From: an uncultured Clostridia bacterium
GTDB taxonomy: Bacteria; Bacillota; Clostridia; Oscillospirales; Acutalibacteraceae
NCBI GenBank assembly: GCA_947624285.1
Contig: CANQJS010000001.1
Coordinates: 186,001-250,000 of the forward strand
Reading direction: 5' to 3'
DNA: 64,000 nt
Positions 3,745 to 58,772 of this stretch are shown here, piece by piece. Position numbers and translations under genes: made by a program. Each line of letters starts with the position of its first letter. The first letter of the stretch is position 1. The notes below the pieces were generated by a model that saw nothing but the letters and a program-made list of their open reading frames with translations, did no database searches and had not been told where the DNA came from.

Positions 3745-4806
3745 ATGGTTACGGGAATTGTTTGTGAGTTAAATCCTCTGCATAAGGGGCATAAATACCT
3801 GTTTGAAACGGTAAAAAGCGCTGTTGACGACGCCGTGGTATGCTGTATGAGCGGTAATTTCGTTCAGCGCGGTGAATTTGCCGTGCAGGATAAATTTACA
3901 AGGGCGGCAAACGCACTACAAAACGGCGCCGACCTTGTAATCGAGCTTCCCGCGGCATATTCCACCCTTTCGGCGGAGGGCTTTTGCAAGGCGGGAGTAG
4001 ATATTCTTGAATCTACCGGCGTGGTAGACAGAATTGCCTTCGGCGCGGAAAATGACGATATGGCGGCGCTTCGTGATATTGCGATAAAGCTGAAAGACCC
4101 TTTTATTCAAAAGCAGATCGTTCTTGAGATGAAAAGCGGCATATCGTTCCCCGCCGCGCGAAACAAAGTCCTCAATACGGATATTCTGAATTATCCAAAT
4201 AATATACTCGCCGTTGAATACCTCAAGGCGGCAAGCCTGCCCTGTGTTGCGGTAAAGCGCATAGGCGGCGGGCACAACAGTGACGATACCGATTATTCTT
4301 CGTCCGCCCTTAGAGCAAGAATGAGCAAAAACAGCATATCCTCCTTAGTAAACTGCGAGAGAGCGGTCTTATCAAAGCTCAGGACGATGACTCCGGAAGA
4401 TTTTCTGAAAATCGACGGCGTTACCGAGGGGCTTGAAAACAGAATAACGAACGCTGTAAGAAATTCCGCCGACCTTGAAGAGCTTTATTCATTGATAAAG
4501 ACAAAAAGATACCCTCATTCGAGAATCAGAAGAATAATTCTTCGGGCGTATTTGGGAATTTACGATTTCCCCGAAAGCCCGCCGTATTTACGAATTTTGG
4601 GCTTTAACGAAAAAGGCAGGCAACTGCTTTCTGATATGAAAAAATCGGCGAAAAAGCCTATCATAACAAAGCTCGGCGACTGTTGTGCGGAGATACTGCC
4701 GTATTTTGAGAGGGAATGCGCTTTTACCGACCTTTATAATTTGGGATATAAAAAACCTCTGCCCTGCGGAACAGAGCAAAGGTCGCAGATAGTTATTATG
4801 CTGTAA
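3745..4806 (+). CDS. tmcAL: tRNA(Met) cytidine acetate ligase (TmcAL)
   Basis: Member of the YlbM/TmcAL family, which uses acetate and ATP to make N4-acetylcytidine at the wobble base of elongator tRNA-Met. The nucleotidyltransferase fold is clear: GIVCELNPLHKGHKYLF at the N terminus (HxGH-type site), then MSGNFVQRGE. The conserved middle segment KRIGGGHNS and the SSSALRARM stretch follow. I start at the ATG at 3745, where the family homology begins and GGTGA lies just upstream; the frame stays open further upstream with no similarity. At 353 residues it is somewhat shorter than the roughly 400 usual for the family. It is divergent from ackA and converges on rnmV with only three bases between the stop codons. 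Confidence 0.92.
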   Translation: MVTGIVCELNPLHKGHKYLFETVKSAVDDAVVCCMSGNFVQRGEFAVQDKFTRAANALQNGADLVIELPAAYSTLSAEGFCKAGVDILESTGVVDRIAFGAENDDMAALRDIAIKLKDPFIQKQIVLEMKSGISFPAARNKVLNTDILNYPNNILAVEYLKAASLPCVAVKRIGGGHNSDDTDYSSSALRARMSKNSISSLVNCERAVLSKLRTMTPEDFLKIDGVTEGLENRITNAVRNSADLEELYSLIKTKRYPHSRIRRIILRAYLGIYDFPESPPYLRILGFNEKGRQLLSDMKKSAKKPIITKLGDCCAEILPYFERECAFTDLYNLGYKKPLPCGTEQRSQIVIML

Positions 4807-26714: not shown

Positions 26715-27053
26715 CTAAAAATTCATATTGTTCCAGCCCCACTGAGAAGTGCCGGTGTATTTTACATAAATTCTGTCGGCAGGTAAGCCGAGCTCTCCGC
26801 CTAAAATTTTGCAAACCTCGGCGGTCATTTTCTCGCACTGAGAATCGGTTGATTTTCCAAAGACGGAAATATCGACGAACGCCGCCGGAGCGTCGCTGCC
26901 CTTAAAATACATATCGCATTTATCTTCAAATCCTATCATCAGCCAGCTCTCGCTTTTCCCCAAAAGCTCTATGGCTTTGCCGAGCTTTGATTTTATTGAG
27001 ATCTTACTGTCGTTGCTTATCGCAACATTTGTGTTCATATTGATATATGGCAT
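26715..27053 (-). CDS. MIF-like tautomerase
   Basis: A 112-residue homologue of macrophage migration inhibitory factor. It starts MPYINMNTNV with the catalytic N-terminal proline (after Met removal), and keeps a Gly-Lys at the position of MIF Lys32 and a tyrosine at MIF Tyr95 (RIYVKY). It ends GWNNMNF like animal MIF. The CXXC pair of mammalian MIF is absent, and Asn97 is replaced by Lys. Members tautomerise phenylpyruvate-type keto acids in vitro. No signal peptide is present. It is the first gene of the MIF-anSME-GPH cluster. Confidence 0.87.
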   Translation of the reverse strand: MPYINMNTNVAISNDSKISIKSKLGKAIELLGKSESWLMIGFEDKCDMYFKGSDAPAAFVDISVFGKSTDSQCEKMTAEVCKILGGELGLPADRIYVKYTGTSQWGWNNMNF

Positions 27054-30267: not shown

Positions 30268-30302
30268 AAAAAAACGCCTCTCTGCCCTAAGGCAAAGAGG
30301 CG
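30268..30302 (-). terminator. T-box-controlled terminator
   Basis: On the minus strand CGCCTCTTTGCC, TTAG, GGCAGAGAGGCG followed by seven Ts. It is the alternative to the antiterminator of the T-box leader. Confidence 0.9.
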
Positions 30303-30534
30303 ATAATAAATACCGTGGTACCACTCTTATTCGTCTGAAAGACGCGCTTTATGCGAACTGACATTCGCCGCCTTGCTAACGGGGGCTACCGTTCGCGCTT
30401 ACTGATATTTCGGCGCAACCACTCAGGGAGGATATTACGGATTTCTTTTTACTGCCTTCCAGCAAACGGCAGCTCTCTGTGAAAAAGTGTAAACCGATTT
30501 TTGTTCCCGTCACTGTGTTTTTCATTTTCAAGCA
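30268..30534 (-). promoter_or_regulatory. T-box riboswitch leader upstream of porGDAB
   Basis: On the minus strand the leader contains the T-box core AGAGTGGTACCACGG (30327-30313). An antiterminator can form by pairing AATAA with TTATT around it. Upstream are the Stem I features: AGAGAGC with GCTGGAA in the distal part, and GTGACGGG...CCCTGAG forming the K-turn base. The TGGT of the T-box pairs with an ACCA tRNA end. The specifier loop 3' strand reads TAATATCC; ATC (Ile) fits best, with ATA (also Ile), TAT or TCC as alternatives. A terminator follows at 30268-30302. Confidence 0.9.
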
Positions 30535-30540
30535 GATTAG

Positions 30541-30569
30541 ATTATAATACAGGAATTTGCGTTTGTCAA
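30541..30569 (-). promoter_or_regulatory. porGDAB promoter
   Basis: Consensus promoter: TTGACA (30569-30564), 17-base spacer, TATAAT (30546-30541), minus strand. Transcription would start near 30534, just before the T-box leader. Confidence 0.85.
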
Positions 30570-30659
30570 CATAATTTGAGCATAATTTTTAACATTTAAA
30601 ATTTTGGAAATAAATAAGGAAGTCGCGGCGAAAAGCTCGGCGACAGCGGGAATTTGCCG

Positions 30660-38534: not shown

Positions 38535-40781
38535 TTATTCAGCCGTTTCCTCTGCGGGAGCTTCCTCTGCGGGAGCTTCCTCGGCAGGAGCTTCTTCTGC
38601 GGGAGTTTCCTCAGCGGGAGTTTCTTCGGCAGGTGCTTCCTCGGCGGGAGCTTCTTCGGCAGGTGCTTCCTCAGCAGGGGCTTCCTCTACGGGAGCTTTC
38701 TCCGCGGGCTCGTCGGTATAAGCAAGCGCTTCTATTACTTTCTCGGGCTTATCGAGCAACTCTTTCATCGAAAGGCTTACTCTCTTTTTGTCAAAGTCGA
38801 TTTCGGTAATTCTTGCTTTAACGACATCGCCAATCTTGAGAACATCGGCGGGAGTCTTTATACGATCCCAGCTTATCTGGCTGATATGGATAAGACCGTC
38901 TATACCCGGAATAACATTCGCAAACGCGCCGAAAGCGGCAAGACCGACTATCTTTGCTTCAATATCCGTGCCAACGGGATAATCTCTCTTGAGTATCTCC
39001 CACGGGTTATCCTCGATCTTCTTGAAGCCGAGAGAGATCTTTTTATTTTCATTATCAAGAGCCTTGACCGTTACCTCTACCTGATCGCCGACCTTAACGA
39101 CCTCGGACGGATGCTTGATCCTTGTCCACGAAAGCTCGCTGATATGGATCATACCGTCTATTCCGCCGATATCCACAAAAGCGCCGTAGCTTGTGAGGGA
39201 CTTAACGGTGCCATTGATGACCATACCCTCTTCAAGCTTGTTCCACGCCTCTTCCTGCGCGGCTTTCTTTTCTTCAACAATAACAGCCTTTATTGAGCCA
39301 ACGGCTCTTCTTCTTGAAGAATTTACATCAATGATCTTAAAGCGAACGGTCGCGCCCTTGAGAACATCAAGCTCCTGATTGCGGGGCACGCCCGTAAGAG
39401 ACGCGGGAACGAACACCCTGATGCCTTTAACGGTAACAAGCACGCCGCCGCGGATAACAGCGGTTACATTACCCTCAAGGATCTCGCCGCTCTCTTTGGC
39501 AGCAACGATTTCGTCCCAGCCTTTGAACGCGTCGGTCAGCTTCTTTGAAAGCTTCAGAACGCCGTCCTGATCATCTGTTTTCATAATGATGAGATCAAGC
39601 TCATCACCTACCGAAACAACCTCCTCGCATTTGTCAAAAGGCTCAGATGAGAGATCTTCGGACGCTATAACGCCTGTTTGCTTTCTTCCGGGAACATCAA
39701 CGAAAACCTCTGTTGGAGTAATGTTGACGACTATTCCCTTTACTACCTTGCTTGTGTCGTTGTCACTAAAAGATTCTTCGAGCATTTCTGCGAAGGTTGT
39801 CTCACCATCAGCAGACGCATCGACAGCAGCCTCTTCAGCGGCAGCGGTTTCTTCGGTAACTGCTGCTTCCTCGGCGTTATCAACGACCTCTGCTGTCTCG
39901 GCAACTTCCTGTGTTGCCTCAACTTCCTTTTCAATAATTTCTTCGGACATGGTTTTGAGTACCTCCTTGATGATTACCGAAGGCGTTGACGCCCCCGATG
40001 TTACACCGACCGATTTGTAAGGCGAAAAATCTATCTCCGAAAGCTCCGCCGCCGTTTCCACAAGAAAAGCGGGGCAGTTTTCGGCGCATACGCTTTTCAG
40101 CTTACCTGTGTTGGAGGAATGCTTCCCGCCGATTACAACTACGGCGTCGCACTCCTGTGACAAAGCGCGCGCTTCCTCCTGCCTGTCAGCCGTTGCACTG
40201 CATATTGTATCAAATATTTCACAATTTGTATATAGTTTTTTCAAAAAATTTTTACATTTTTTCCATTCTTTCAAAGAAAAAGTGGTTTGTGAAACGCAAA
40301 TTATACTTTTTTCCGGCGATAAATTATTTTCTGAAATGATACTTTCAAGCTCTCGCTCATTGTTAAAAACGAAATAATCGCCCTTGCAATAGGAGCAAAT
40401 ACCCCTGACCTCGGGGTGGTCTTTGTCACCCGCGATAAGTGTAACCGTACCCTCCGGACGGGCGCTCACTATTCTGTGGATTTTTTTGACGAACGGGCAA
40501 GTGGCGTCAACATAAGGAACGCCTAATCGCTCTATTTCATCAATAACATTCTTTTCAACGCCGTGTGTGCGCACGACTATCTTGTAGCCGTCCTCACATT
40601 CCGAGGGCTTTTCTATTATTTTTACTCCCCTGCCCGTCAGGTTATCGACAAGCTGGCGATTATGAATTATAGGGCCGAGTGTGCAAACTTTTTCGCCGTT
40701 GTTGACAAGCTCATACACAAGATTAACGGCTCTGTCCACTCCAAAGCAAAAGCCCGCCGTTTTCGCAAGCTTAACCTGCAT
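38535..40781 (-). CDS. ispH: Fusion of IspH and ribosomal protein S1
   Basis: A 748-residue bifunctional protein. Residues 1 to about 283 are HMBPP reductase, the last MEP-pathway step, with the three iron-sulfur cysteines in FCFGVDRAV, VDATCPFV and TICSATAD. An acidic linker of about 60 residues follows. Then come four S1 RNA-binding domains, recognisable by SYGAFVDIGGIDGMIHISEL and AFGAFANVIPGIDGLIHIS in pieces. The protein ends with about ten copies of a five-residue Glu/Ala/Pro unit. The fusion is known from Clostridia. It overlaps plsC by 11 bases in the cmk-plsC-ispH/rpsA order. Confidence 0.96.
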   Translation of the reverse strand: MQVKLAKTAGFCFGVDRAVNLVYELVNNGEKVCTLGPIIHNRQLVDNLTGRGVKIIEKPSECEDGYKIVVRTHGVEKNVIDEIERLGVPYVDATCPFVKKIHRIVSARPEGTVTLIAGDKDHPEVRGICSYCKGDYFVFNNERELESIISENNLSPEKSIICVSQTTFSLKEWKKCKNFLKKLYTNCEIFDTICSATADRQEEARALSQECDAVVVIGGKHSSNTGKLKSVCAENCPAFLVETAAELSEIDFSPYKSVGVTSGASTPSVIIKEVLKTMSEEIIEKEVEATQEVAETAEVVDNAEEAAVTEETAAAEEAAVDASADGETTFAEMLEESFSDNDTSKVVKGIVVNITPTEVFVDVPGRKQTGVIASEDLSSEPFDKCEEVVSVGDELDLIIMKTDDQDGVLKLSKKLTDAFKGWDEIVAAKESGEILEGNVTAVIRGGVLVTVKGIRVFVPASLTGVPRNQELDVLKGATVRFKIIDVNSSRRRAVGSIKAVIVEEKKAAQEEAWNKLEEGMVINGTVKSLTSYGAFVDIGGIDGMIHISELSWTRIKHPSEVVKVGDQVEVTVKALDNENKKISLGFKKIEDNPWEILKRDYPVGTDIEAKIVGLAAFGAFANVIPGIDGLIHISQISWDRIKTPADVLKIGDVVKARITEIDFDKKRVSLSMKELLDKPEKVIEALAYTDEPAEKAPVEEAPAEEAPAEEAPAEEAPAEETPAEETPAEEAPAEEAPAEEAPAEETAE
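38545..38700 (-). repeat. 15-base tandem repeat encoding the EEAPA tail
   Basis: About ten imperfect 15-base units encode EEAPA or EETPA at the C terminus of the IspH-S1 fusion. Third positions vary between units, but the peptide is nearly invariant apart from two Thr-for-Ala changes. Copy number could vary by slippage. Confidence 0.9.
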
Positions 40782-57067: not shown

Positions 57068-58729
57068 TTAAAACTTTACGATTATGTCGTCTGCCGAGCC
57101 GCCGGGCGGGATCATCGGAAGAACATTGGAATCCGGCGAAATACGGCAGTCGATAACCACGGGGCCGTTATGCTCCAGCGCCTCTTTGATGACCGCGTCT
57201 ATCTCGTCATTGTAATTTATGCGCAAACCCTTAACGCCGAACGCCTCCGCAACCTTAACGAAATCGGTTTTTCTGTTCGGGTCGGTGTCCGCAAAGCGGT
57301 TGCCGTAAAACAGCTTTTGCCACTGGCGTACCATTCCCAACACCTTGTTGTTCATAACTATCATCACAACGGGTATATTGTAGGACGCCATCGTCGCAAG
57401 CTCGTTTAGATTCATATGGAAGCCGCCGTCGCCCGCGAAGAGAACAACGCGCCTGTCGGGTCTGCCGTAAGCCGCGCCCATCGCCGCGCCCATCGAATAC
57501 CCCATAGTGCCGAGACCGCCGCTGGTGAGAAGCGTGCGCGGCGTGGTGAATTTATAAAACTGCGCCGCCCAAAGCTGGTGCTGACCTACATCGGTTACGA
57601 TTATCGTATCGTCGGGAGTCTGCCTGTCAACAGCCTCAATGACCTTCTGCGGATTTACAAAATCATCTATCTGATTTTGCATAAACGGACGCCTCCAGCC
57701 GTTGATCTCCTGCCTCCATTCGGCATGCGACTGCTTATCTATGCTCTCCGTCAGCACGGGGAGAATTTCTTTAAGAGAGCCTCTGAGATGATAGCGAGAA
57801 TAAACATTCTTGTCCATCTCGGCAGGGTCGATATCAATATGTAAAACATCCGCCTTGGGTGCAAATTTAGCCCTGTTGCCGGCAACACGGTCTGAAAATC
57901 TCGCGCCGCAGGCTATGAGCACATCGCACTGAGAAGCCGCTTTATTTGACTCAAATCTGCCGTGCATACCGATAAGCCCCGCGTACAGCTCGTGAGCGCT
58001 GCTGAAAGCGCCGAGACCCATAAGAGAAGAAACAACGGGAGCGTCCAGCTTTTCTGCAAACGCCCTTATTTCCTCGCTCGCGTCGGAAGATATGGCGCCG
58101 CCGCCGAGATAAATCAACGGCTTTTTGCAATTTTTGAGAAGCTTTATCGCTCTTTCGACGCATTCCGTTTTCGGATAAACATTTTCGTCGGGCTGCTGCT
58201 TCGGCGCGGGATAATACTCACACTCCGCCGAAGTTATATCCTTTGGAATATCCACAAGAACGGGGCCTTTTCTGCCGCTTATGGCAATTCTGAAGGCGTT
58301 TCGCAGAGTATCCGCCAGCTCCTCGATATGCGAAACCATATAGTTGTGCTTTGTTATCGGCATCGTAATGCCCTTTATATCCACCTCTTGGAAAGAATCG
58401 CGCCCGATGAGAGCCGTGCCTACATTGCAGGTTATGGCAACCATCGGAATGGAATCCATATAAGCGGTGGCTATACCGGTAACAAGATTTGTTGAGCCCG
58501 GTCCCGAAGTCGCGAAGCACACGCCGACTTTGCCCGTGGCGCGGCTGTAGCCGTCCGCCGCGTGAGAAGCGCCCTGCTCGTGAGCCGTGAGAATATGATT
58601 GAAAGTGTCGCCGTATTTATACAGCTCGTCAAAAATATTCAGAATAGTTCCGCCGGGATAGCCGAATATGGTATCCACTCCCTGTTCCTTTAAAACCTCC
58701 AGAACTATTTGAGAACCGTTTAATTTCAT
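57068..58729 (-). CDS. ilvB: Acetolactate synthase large subunit
   Basis: TPP enzyme for the first common step of valine, leucine and isoleucine synthesis. The 553-residue protein has IFGYPGGTILNIFDEL, the catalytic glutamate in HEQGASHAADGYSR, RDSFQEVDI, and the TPP motif GDGGFHMNLNELATMASYNIP (in pieces). I start at ATG 58729 with GAGGAT five bases upstream; the GTG five codons earlier overlaps that site. First gene of ilvB-ilvN-leuC-leuD. No T-box or leader peptide is evident. Confidence 0.97.
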   Translation of the reverse strand: MKLNGSQIVLEVLKEQGVDTIFGYPGGTILNIFDELYKYGDTFNHILTAHEQGASHAADGYSRATGKVGVCFATSGPGSTNLVTGIATAYMDSIPMVAITCNVGTALIGRDSFQEVDIKGITMPITKHNYMVSHIEELADTLRNAFRIAISGRKGPVLVDIPKDITSAECEYYPAPKQQPDENVYPKTECVERAIKLLKNCKKPLIYLGGGAISSDASEEIRAFAEKLDAPVVSSLMGLGAFSSAHELYAGLIGMHGRFESNKAASQCDVLIACGARFSDRVAGNRAKFAPKADVLHIDIDPAEMDKNVYSRYHLRGSLKEILPVLTESIDKQSHAEWRQEINGWRRPFMQNQIDDFVNPQKVIEAVDRQTPDDTIIVTDVGQHQLWAAQFYKFTTPRTLLTSGGLGTMGYSMGAAMGAAYGRPDRRVVLFAGDGGFHMNLNELATMASYNIPVVMIVMNNKVLGMVRQWQKLFYGNRFADTDPNRKTDFVKVAEAFGVKGLRINYNDEIDAVIKEALEHNGPVVIDCRISPDSNVLPMIPPGGSADDIIVKF

Positions 58730-58772
58730 AAATATCCTCTCCACAACATAATCTTACTTAATTTTAATCTCT

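Follow-up and report, generated by a model that had tools for sequence, protein, structure and literature searches.

In T-box leaders of the terminator type, transcription is ON when the tRNA is uncharged (PMC11477304), and the list of Clostridioides difficile T-boxes in the available part of the same article contains no oxidoreductase. No report of a T-box on a ferredoxin oxidoreductase gene, or on a gene for an acyl-CoA ligase of the kind described below, was found in the open-access literature searched, and the classic T-box surveys may possibly mention one. For oxidoreductases of the PorA type, the accessible part of a review describes a Clostridium sporogenes porA mutant that loses 2-methylbutyrate, isobutyrate, and isovalerate (PMC11271093). 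This phenotype, as far as it is covered there, indicates that a PorA-type enzyme handles these branched substrates. MbcS of Staphylococcus aureus is described as selective in its activation of 2-methylbutyrate and isobutyrate (PMC10026030).

Biochemical work has shown since the 1960s that rumen anaerobes convert branched volatile fatty acids to amino acids by reductive carboxylation. Formation of isoleucine from 2-methylbutyrate by rumen anaerobes is credited to Robinson and Allison 1969, as cited in the available part of a later article, where the 2-methylbutyrate route is also invoked for Methanobrevibacter (PMC2812497). The analysis reported here links this conversion to candidate genes.

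A complete T-box leader precedes porGDAB

The window analyzed here is a 64,000-nt stretch (positions 186,001-250,000 of contig CANQJS010000001.1, assembly GCA_947624285.1) from an uncultured Clostridia bacterium of the Acutalibacteraceae, whose genome (G000) amounts to 1.59 Mb in 27 contigs and is 75% complete. A sequence-only reading of this DNA had placed a T-box, with a consensus promoter and a competing terminator, on a porGDAB operon, and the Rfam scan bears this out. Model RF00230 matches 30522..30293 (-) over its full length (1-219 of 219) with 119.9 bits, above the gathering score of 93 (E 5.7e-26), and this is the sole T-box in the 64-kb window at that score. The leader motifs listed in that reading (GTGACGGG, AGAGAGC, GCTGGAA, CCCTGAG, and AGAGTGGTACCACGG) are all present. 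The features of the locus are collected in Table 1.

Table 1 Features of the porGDAB locus and its leader, in window coordinates
Feature	Position	Strand	Basis
-35 hexamer TTGACA	30564..30569	-	12/12 consensus, 17-nt spacer
-10 hexamer TATAAT	30541..30546	-	Same 12/12 sigma-70 promoter
T-box leader RNA (Stem I, II, IIA/B, III, antiterminator)	30293..30522	-	RF00230, 119.9 bits, and covariation
5' strand GGGA of the Stem I helix adjoining the specifier loop	30505..30508	-	Helix 1, 100% of cells paired
Specifier triplet ATC (Ile, anticodon GAU)	30431..30433	-	Register taken from T-boxes of known genes; AUC in all 45 distinct leaders
3' strand TCCC of the specifier-adjoining helix, one base past the triplet	30426..30429	-	Covaries, GGGA/TCCC with GAGA/TCTC
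Antiterminator AAGAG / CTCTT around the T-box bulge	30295..30328	-	Helices 8 and 9 of the covariation analysis
T-box UGGU, pairs with a tRNA end having discriminator A	30320..30323	-	Sequence
Intrinsic terminator and T tract, competing with the antiterminator	30268..30302	-	Terminator scan and folding energy
porG, gamma subunit, 190 aa	29667..30239	-	PF01558; TIGR02175, 210.8 bits (cut-off 81.1)
porD, ferredoxin-like delta subunit, 100 aa	29352..29654	-	TIGR02179, 83.6 bits (cut-off 60.05)
porA, alpha subunit, 393 aa	28169..29350	-	PF01855 and PF17147
porB, thiamine-diphosphate-binding beta subunit, 313 aa	27213..28154	-	PF02775

The promoter (TTGACA-17-TATAAT, 30569-30541 (-)) lies upstream of the leader and matches the consensus at 12/12 positions. 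It is one of four promoter-like sites in the 901 bases scanned, versus 1.4 in shuffled sequences, and the other three score 9-10. The terminator stem comprises 12 pairs (30302-30275 (-)) followed by TTTTTTT and folds with -23.6 kcal/mol (z -6.87); it is the one terminator-like site found, against a shuffle average of 1.1. The UGGN bulge sits in an antiterminator that excludes the terminator, as in members of RF00230. Since the terminator occupies the CTCTT strand that closes the antiterminator, the leader is of the transcription-terminating type, ON with uncharged tRNA.

Taken by themselves, the Stem I region (z 0.25) and the antiterminator (z -0.33) have folding energies no better than those of shuffled sequences; the argument for the structure is carried by the covariance model and by covariation. 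The structure was placed on the window sequence following Rfam's alignment and compared over 19 orthologous leaders. Across these, 96.0% of cells pair and both sides have changed in 19 of the 43 pairs. The covariation score of 0.393 compares with 0.158 for shuffled alignments and 0.066-0.147 when the register is slid; no shuffle in 500 reached this score, and one in 500 reached the count of further pair types. The leader is a complete, ordinary T-box.

The specifier is an isoleucine codon

Six T-boxes in the window's genome score above the Rfam cut-off, and the five on genes other than por (identified by eye) served as register anchors: valS with GUA, pheS with UUC, cysE (cysE-cysS) with UGC, leuA with CUC, and trpE with UGG. 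In the Rfam alignments, all five anchor codons sit one base ahead of a four-pair helix that is followed by N-GAG. The equivalent position in the por leader is AUC (Ile), the triplet that the sequence-only reading had thought the likely specifier.

A script applying this one-base-before-helix rule was run on 36 T-boxes from six genomes. With other genes downstream (31 T-boxes, genes assigned by eye), the script arrived at the matching codon 22 times; it took the wrong helix or register in five (L120, L127, L128, L132, and L135) and made no call in two (L117 and L122), and the matching codon can be recognized by eye in each of these seven. The remaining cases are L130, where the gene is ambiguous, and L055, a T-box without a gene in the stretch analyzed. 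L120 (pheS) has two spacer bases rather than one, showing that the spacing rule admits exceptions.

Of 66 por leaders, 45 are distinct. The script recognized the helix in 40 of these and read AUC in each (40/40), and the remaining five show AUC by eye; for L012 and L080, the script and the leader alignment both give AUC. The base preceding AUC is T in 39 of the 40 script-read leaders and A in L158. AUC is also present in 7/7 of the diverged por leaders of Lachnospiraceae, six of them located by Rfam match (in L178 the codon was read by eye within that match) and one, L219, by pattern. Here it stands in GAA-A-AUC-A or GAA-T-AUC-A, with A in 6/7, and GAA-N-AUC-A is the textbook specifier context. 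The specifier is therefore AUC in every por leader read. Of the three outcomes that would have contradicted the earlier reading, two, absence of a T-box model match and random variation of the specifier among orthologues, did not occur. The T-box bulge reads UGGU before por, and UGGC (trpE) and UGGA (cysE) elsewhere in the window's genome, variation that is expected if the bulge follows the tRNA discriminator base. No Ile T-box other than a por or VorB leader was seen among the T-boxes of the six genomes examined.

Shifting the frame by one base would give UAU (Tyr, upstream) or UCN (Ser, downstream). UAU is likewise present in the window leader and in 39 of the 40 script-read leaders, it could be read from the plain Rfam column alignment, and the two spacer bases of L120 show some freedom in spacing; the A before AUC removes the Tyr reading for L158, though, and A in six of the seven Lachnospiraceae leaders and C in 18 of 30 ligase leaders (see below) also speak against it, whereas Ser needs zero spacer bases before the helix, as in none of the anchors, and a tRNA ending in A to pair with UGGU, where the window tRNA-Ser ends in G. 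Both readings were dropped on these grounds and are scarcely credible. Isoleucine control of por is solid, with binding of the tRNA itself presumed from it.

Distribution of por and its T-box

Of 36 further genomes from the window's genus, 20 contain PorA orthologues with 81-98% identity (one partial). Across 60 genus genomes, por is present in 40 (counting the window's genome, a partial copy in G014, and a broken copy in G064), a VorB-type operon, with an oxidoreductase of three subunits, in seven, neither in 13, and both in none. This co-occurrence of 0/60 compares with an expectation of 4.7 (P 2e-4).

The scan of PorA in public genomes covers 80 of 541 relatives. Thirty-seven of these group with the window in one clade (100/99), under records such as Eubacterium sp., Oscillospiraceae, uncultured Clostridia, Candidatus Eubacterium faecigallinarum, Clostridium sp. 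CAG:678, and others, and 36 of the 37 loci have the T-box motif. The exception, L142, is a close orthologue in which a terminator-like remnant, GGCAGAGAGGCGTTTTTT, lies before porG (L142:1700-2110) with no T-box at the Rfam gathering score; we describe it as a natural loss of control.

The other 43 of the 80 relatives are mainly Lachnospiraceae with 72-81% identity. A plain motif search found no T-box in these 43 loci, and the resulting notion of a Lachnospiraceae por without a T-box was overturned by six Rfam matches and by L219. T-boxes of divergent sequence precede por in 6 of 19 Lachnospiraceae-side loci scanned by Rfam, with L219 a seventh by pattern, and the other 13 of the 19 have none at the gathering score. 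At E <= 0.01, nine Lachnospiraceae loci (eight of them rescans) have no T-box before por, the match in L184 being on the opposite strand. In all, 20 of the 43 loci were scanned by Rfam and 23 by pattern only, including L219 and L176 (103 bases upstream). Because T-boxes are present in Lachnospiraceae por leaders, the idea of a single T-box gain in the window's genus was dropped. The gene neighborhoods of 15 Lachnospiraceae-side loci give no clue to function. In both groups, then, the Ile T-box accompanies this por family, with some members as exceptions.

A VorB-type operon under the same specifier

The alternative operon has the order T-box, ligase (about 755 aa), ATPase (about 216 aa), small ferredoxin (L101), VorB, TPP subunit, and gamma subunit. 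AUC is found in 6/6 complete leaders, which score 64-82 bits, below the Rfam cut-off of 93; the seventh contig is too short. In the copy at L098, the VorB subunit matches NF005507 (3-methyl-2-oxobutanoate dehydrogenase VorB) with 551.8 bits (cut-off 399). The top family for the ligase is methylbutyryl-CoA synthetase MbcS (NF047394), at 456.5 bits and under the cut-off of 850, and we refer to the ligase as MbcS-like, a putative likeness in activity.

All seven VorB genomes (68 to 97% complete) are without ilvA, six of the seven are without ilvC and ilvD, and none has por. Compared with the other 53 genus genomes, these absences have Fisher P values of 2e-6 (ilvA), 6e-4 (ilvC), and 2e-4 (ilvD). 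Over the order as a whole, 186 of 295 genomes contain a match to the ligase at E <= 1e-150, and an AUC T-box precedes the ligase in 30/30 of the best-scoring loci (L220-L249). In L235 and L249, the AUC T-box leads into the ligase, the ATPase, the ferredoxin, and the beginning of VorB. Nineteen of the 30 loci contain a second T-box, at about locus position 4000 (reading orientation), with a Val specifier in each (GUA in 18, GUC in one). Where sequence beyond it was read (L220 and L222), the Val T-box is followed by a second ligase-like frame, and the tandem second ligases share about 58-65% identity with the query ligase. This Val-T-box ligase is a candidate for an isobutyrate-to-valine branch.

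An Rfam T-box match was obtained in 10/10 ligase loci tested, at E <= 1.3e-12 and below the curated score. Together with those of L091, L092, L094, L096, L098, and L101, these ligase-operon T-boxes score about 64-92 bits against the cut-off of 93, and standard annotation may therefore miss them. In a separate observation, a Leu (CUC) T-box of G030 stands ahead of a short gene resembling 2-isopropylmalate synthase (472 aa) and of a protein of 841 aa whose C-terminal part is an AMP-ligase (L091:2977-7155); this arrangement may be a leucine counterpart.

Substrate and direction of PorGDAB

All four subunits match models of four-subunit 2-oxoacid:acceptor oxidoreductases above cut-off (TIGR02175, TIGR02179, PF01855, PF17147, and PF02775). 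Models that name a substrate stay below theirs. For pyruvate synthase, the equivalogs reach 494.6 of 550 (NF040682), 332.5 of 405 (NF008819), 188.9 of 270 (NF040683), and 70.1 of 120 bits (NF040684), and for 2-ketoisovalerate ferredoxin oxidoreductase 347.4 of 646 (NF006232), 284.9 of 405 (NF008818), and 60.5 of 166 bits (NF007202). The top equivalog models for PorA and PorB are those of archaeal pyruvate synthase, under their cut-offs, and the closest solved structure is the pyruvate oxidoreductase 9bt4 (E 2.7e-94). The porB motif DNGAYMNTG has Gly where aligned pyruvate and oxalate oxidoreductases have Glu (DN-E-AYMNTG / DT-E-VYSNTG), and the alpha motif has Asn in place of the aromatic residue of INIWNDH / SIFGDH in aligned pyruvate enzymes. 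In the 80 loci from the 541 relatives, the alpha motif has 80 matches and the beta motif 76, with Gly in 75 and Glu in one.

Other genes in the window include a MIF/tautomerase-family gene (PF01187) after porB (26715-27053 (-)), with look-alikes near por in G021, G029, G035, G020, L163, and L173 as judged by eye. A 748-aa frame at 38535-40781 (-) appears by eye to fuse an IspH (HMBPP reductase)-like part to S1 repeats and an Ala/Glu/Pro-rich tail.

We consider it probable that isoleucine shortage induces reductive carboxylation of 2-methylbutyryl-CoA by PorGDAB to the 2-oxoacid of isoleucine. The AUC specifier would read tRNA-Ile(GAU); the CCA end of uncharged tRNA-Ile would hold the antiterminator and allow transcription of porGDAB, and with charged tRNA-Ile the terminator would form. 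A supply of 2-methylbutyryl-CoA, presumably from 2-methylbutyrate, would be joined by PorGDAB, acting as an anabolic synthase, to CO2 with two reduced ferredoxins to give 3-methyl-2-oxopentanoate, which a transaminase would convert to isoleucine. In this way, 2-methylbutyrate that other gut microbes release would serve to rebuild isoleucine, either alongside the threonine route or in its place.

Reductive carboxylation to an isoleucine precursor had also been proposed in the sequence-only reading, and the proposal fared unevenly. In its favor, a VorB operon with an MbcS-like ligase and an Ile T-box occurs only in genomes without por and ilvA, and this parallel operon provides strong indirect support for synthesis of the isoleucine 2-oxoacid. 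Against it, ilvA, ilvC, and ilvD are all kept in 34 of 40 por genomes, an acetolactate-synthase-like gene (identified by eye from its translation) lies in the window at 57068-58744 (-), without a T-box at the gathering score, and the best ligase match in eight por genomes reaches 157 bits. The archaeal pyruvate synthase models as top equivalogs of PorA and PorB, the Lachnospiraceae por loci in which no T-box was found, and the 13 genus genomes with neither por nor VorB also count against it. The retained ilv genes and the window acetolactate synthase imply that isoleucine can be made without por. In those 34 genomes por is an addition rather than a replacement, and loss of the ilv pathway is ruled out as a general explanation for por. 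No strong MbcS-like ligase that could feed PorGDAB was found among the eight por genomes searched: six (G000, G024, G029, G070, G077, and G008) have none at E <= 1e-30, and the AMP-ligase matches of G021 and G035 are weak (106-157 bits). Nonetheless, reductive carboxylation by PorGDAB remains the likely reading.

The same leader would fit equally well if PorGDAB made 2-oxobutanoate from propionyl-CoA and CO2, with acetolactate synthase, IlvC, and IlvD finishing isoleucine. Such a route would use the genes that por genomes keep (ilvC in 36/40, ilvD in 38/40, counting as present ilvD fragments below cut-off in G018, G020, and G023 and an ilvA near miss in G066). Its small substrate suits the pyruvate-synthase-like family profile, and one genome (G020) has por, ilvC, and ilvD (in two pieces) with no ilvA at cut-off. 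However, ilvA, already a source of 2-oxobutanoate, is present in 37 of the 40 por genomes, and the equivalent operon behind an Ile T-box is of the VorB type with an MbcS-like ligase. In addition, G029 (98% complete) and G035 (92%) have por with an AUC T-box and ilvD, with both ilvA and ilvC absent, although these two genes lie within about 8 kb in several genomes, so that one assembly gap could remove both. Taken together, the 2-oxobutanoate route appears unlikely.

Decidedly unlikely is an oxidative role, in which PorGDAB would convert branched-chain 2-oxoacids to acyl-CoA, for catabolism or as anteiso fatty-acid primers, with the T-box merely limiting this activity. The C. sporogenes porA mutant phenotype, as described in the available part of the review (PMC11271093), is in line with oxidation. 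A terminator-type T-box that is ON with uncharged tRNA-Ile has the wrong polarity for isoleucine breakdown, and the parallel VorB operon opens with an acid-activating ligase, which points towards the 2-oxoacid.

The equivalog scores, which lean to pyruvate synthase below cut-off, and the structural match to 9bt4 would also be expected of a second pyruvate:ferredoxin oxidoreductase whose Ile T-box served as a general response to amino-acid limitation. Yet 36 of the 40 por genomes also encode a single-chain pyruvate oxidoreductase, in frames that span 851-1230 aa and are mostly about 1180, and por is therefore not the housekeeping enzyme there. The single-chain enzyme was not found in G000 (75% complete), G033, G072, and G079, and G021, a 98% relative of G000, has it. 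Every por leader that was read has an Ile specifier, and Gly and Asn replace the Glu and the aromatic residue common to the aligned pyruvate enzymes, positions with a putative role in substrate choice. We regard a second pyruvate enzyme as very improbable, and reductive carboxylation of 2-methylbutyryl-CoA as the preferred reading of PorGDAB.

Discussion

Taken across species, these observations lead us to lean, by a modest degree, towards a tRNA-sensing regulon in gut Clostridia that turns scavenged branched short-chain acids into amino acids. An Ile T-box would control a 2-methylbutyrate-activating ligase, a ferredoxin-dependent 2-oxoacid synthase, or both, and a Val T-box would control an isobutyrate-activating ligase. 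The PorGDAB and VorB types, distantly related, would interchange between species under the Ile specifier, and the route would replace the ilv pathway in some. Three aspects deserve attention: an oxidoreductase as the target of a T-box, the exchange of one oxidoreductase for another behind one specifier, and the pairing of Ile and Val leaders on the ligases.

For bacterial genes annotated por or vor, substrate and direction are difficult to tell, and a tRNA-specific leader is a genetic label for both. If the proposal is true, it points to testable genes for the exchange of 2-methylbutyrate and isobutyrate by cross-feeding among gut microbes, and auxotrophy predictions change for genomes without ilvA, ilvC, and ilvD. 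T-box specifiers could then serve in the functional assignment of 2-oxoacid oxidoreductases and acyl-CoA ligases whose role is ambiguous.

Among known systems, the ligase of the parallel operon has S. aureus MbcS as its top-scoring family (456.5 bits). It differs from that enzyme, which serves fatty-acid synthesis, in scoring below the 850-bit cut-off, in having about 230 extra N-terminal residues, and in being T-box controlled. C. sporogenes PorA, a VOR-like enzyme that makes branched short-chain acids, is likewise PorA-type and acts on Ile, Leu, and Val, as described in the accessible part of the review; the likeness is one by description, and that enzyme works oxidatively, opposite to the direction proposed here (PMC11271093). 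With the pyruvate/2-ketoisovalerate family at large, the window enzyme shares gamma, delta, alpha, and beta subunits, the ThDP site, and a delta ferredoxin, whereas it falls below the compared equivalog cut-offs and has Gly and Asn in place of Glu and an aromatic residue. The leader itself has all the structural elements of the RF00230 T-boxes of Firmicutes, with the terminator/antiterminator pair, the specifier register, and the ON state with uncharged tRNA. Its specifier loop is without the AGUA/GAA loop-E letters, as are those of the trpE and leuA T-boxes in the window's genome. RF00230 T-boxes usually precede a synthetase, a transporter, or an ordinary biosynthetic gene, whereas the target in the window is a ferredoxin-dependent 2-oxoacid oxidoreductase.
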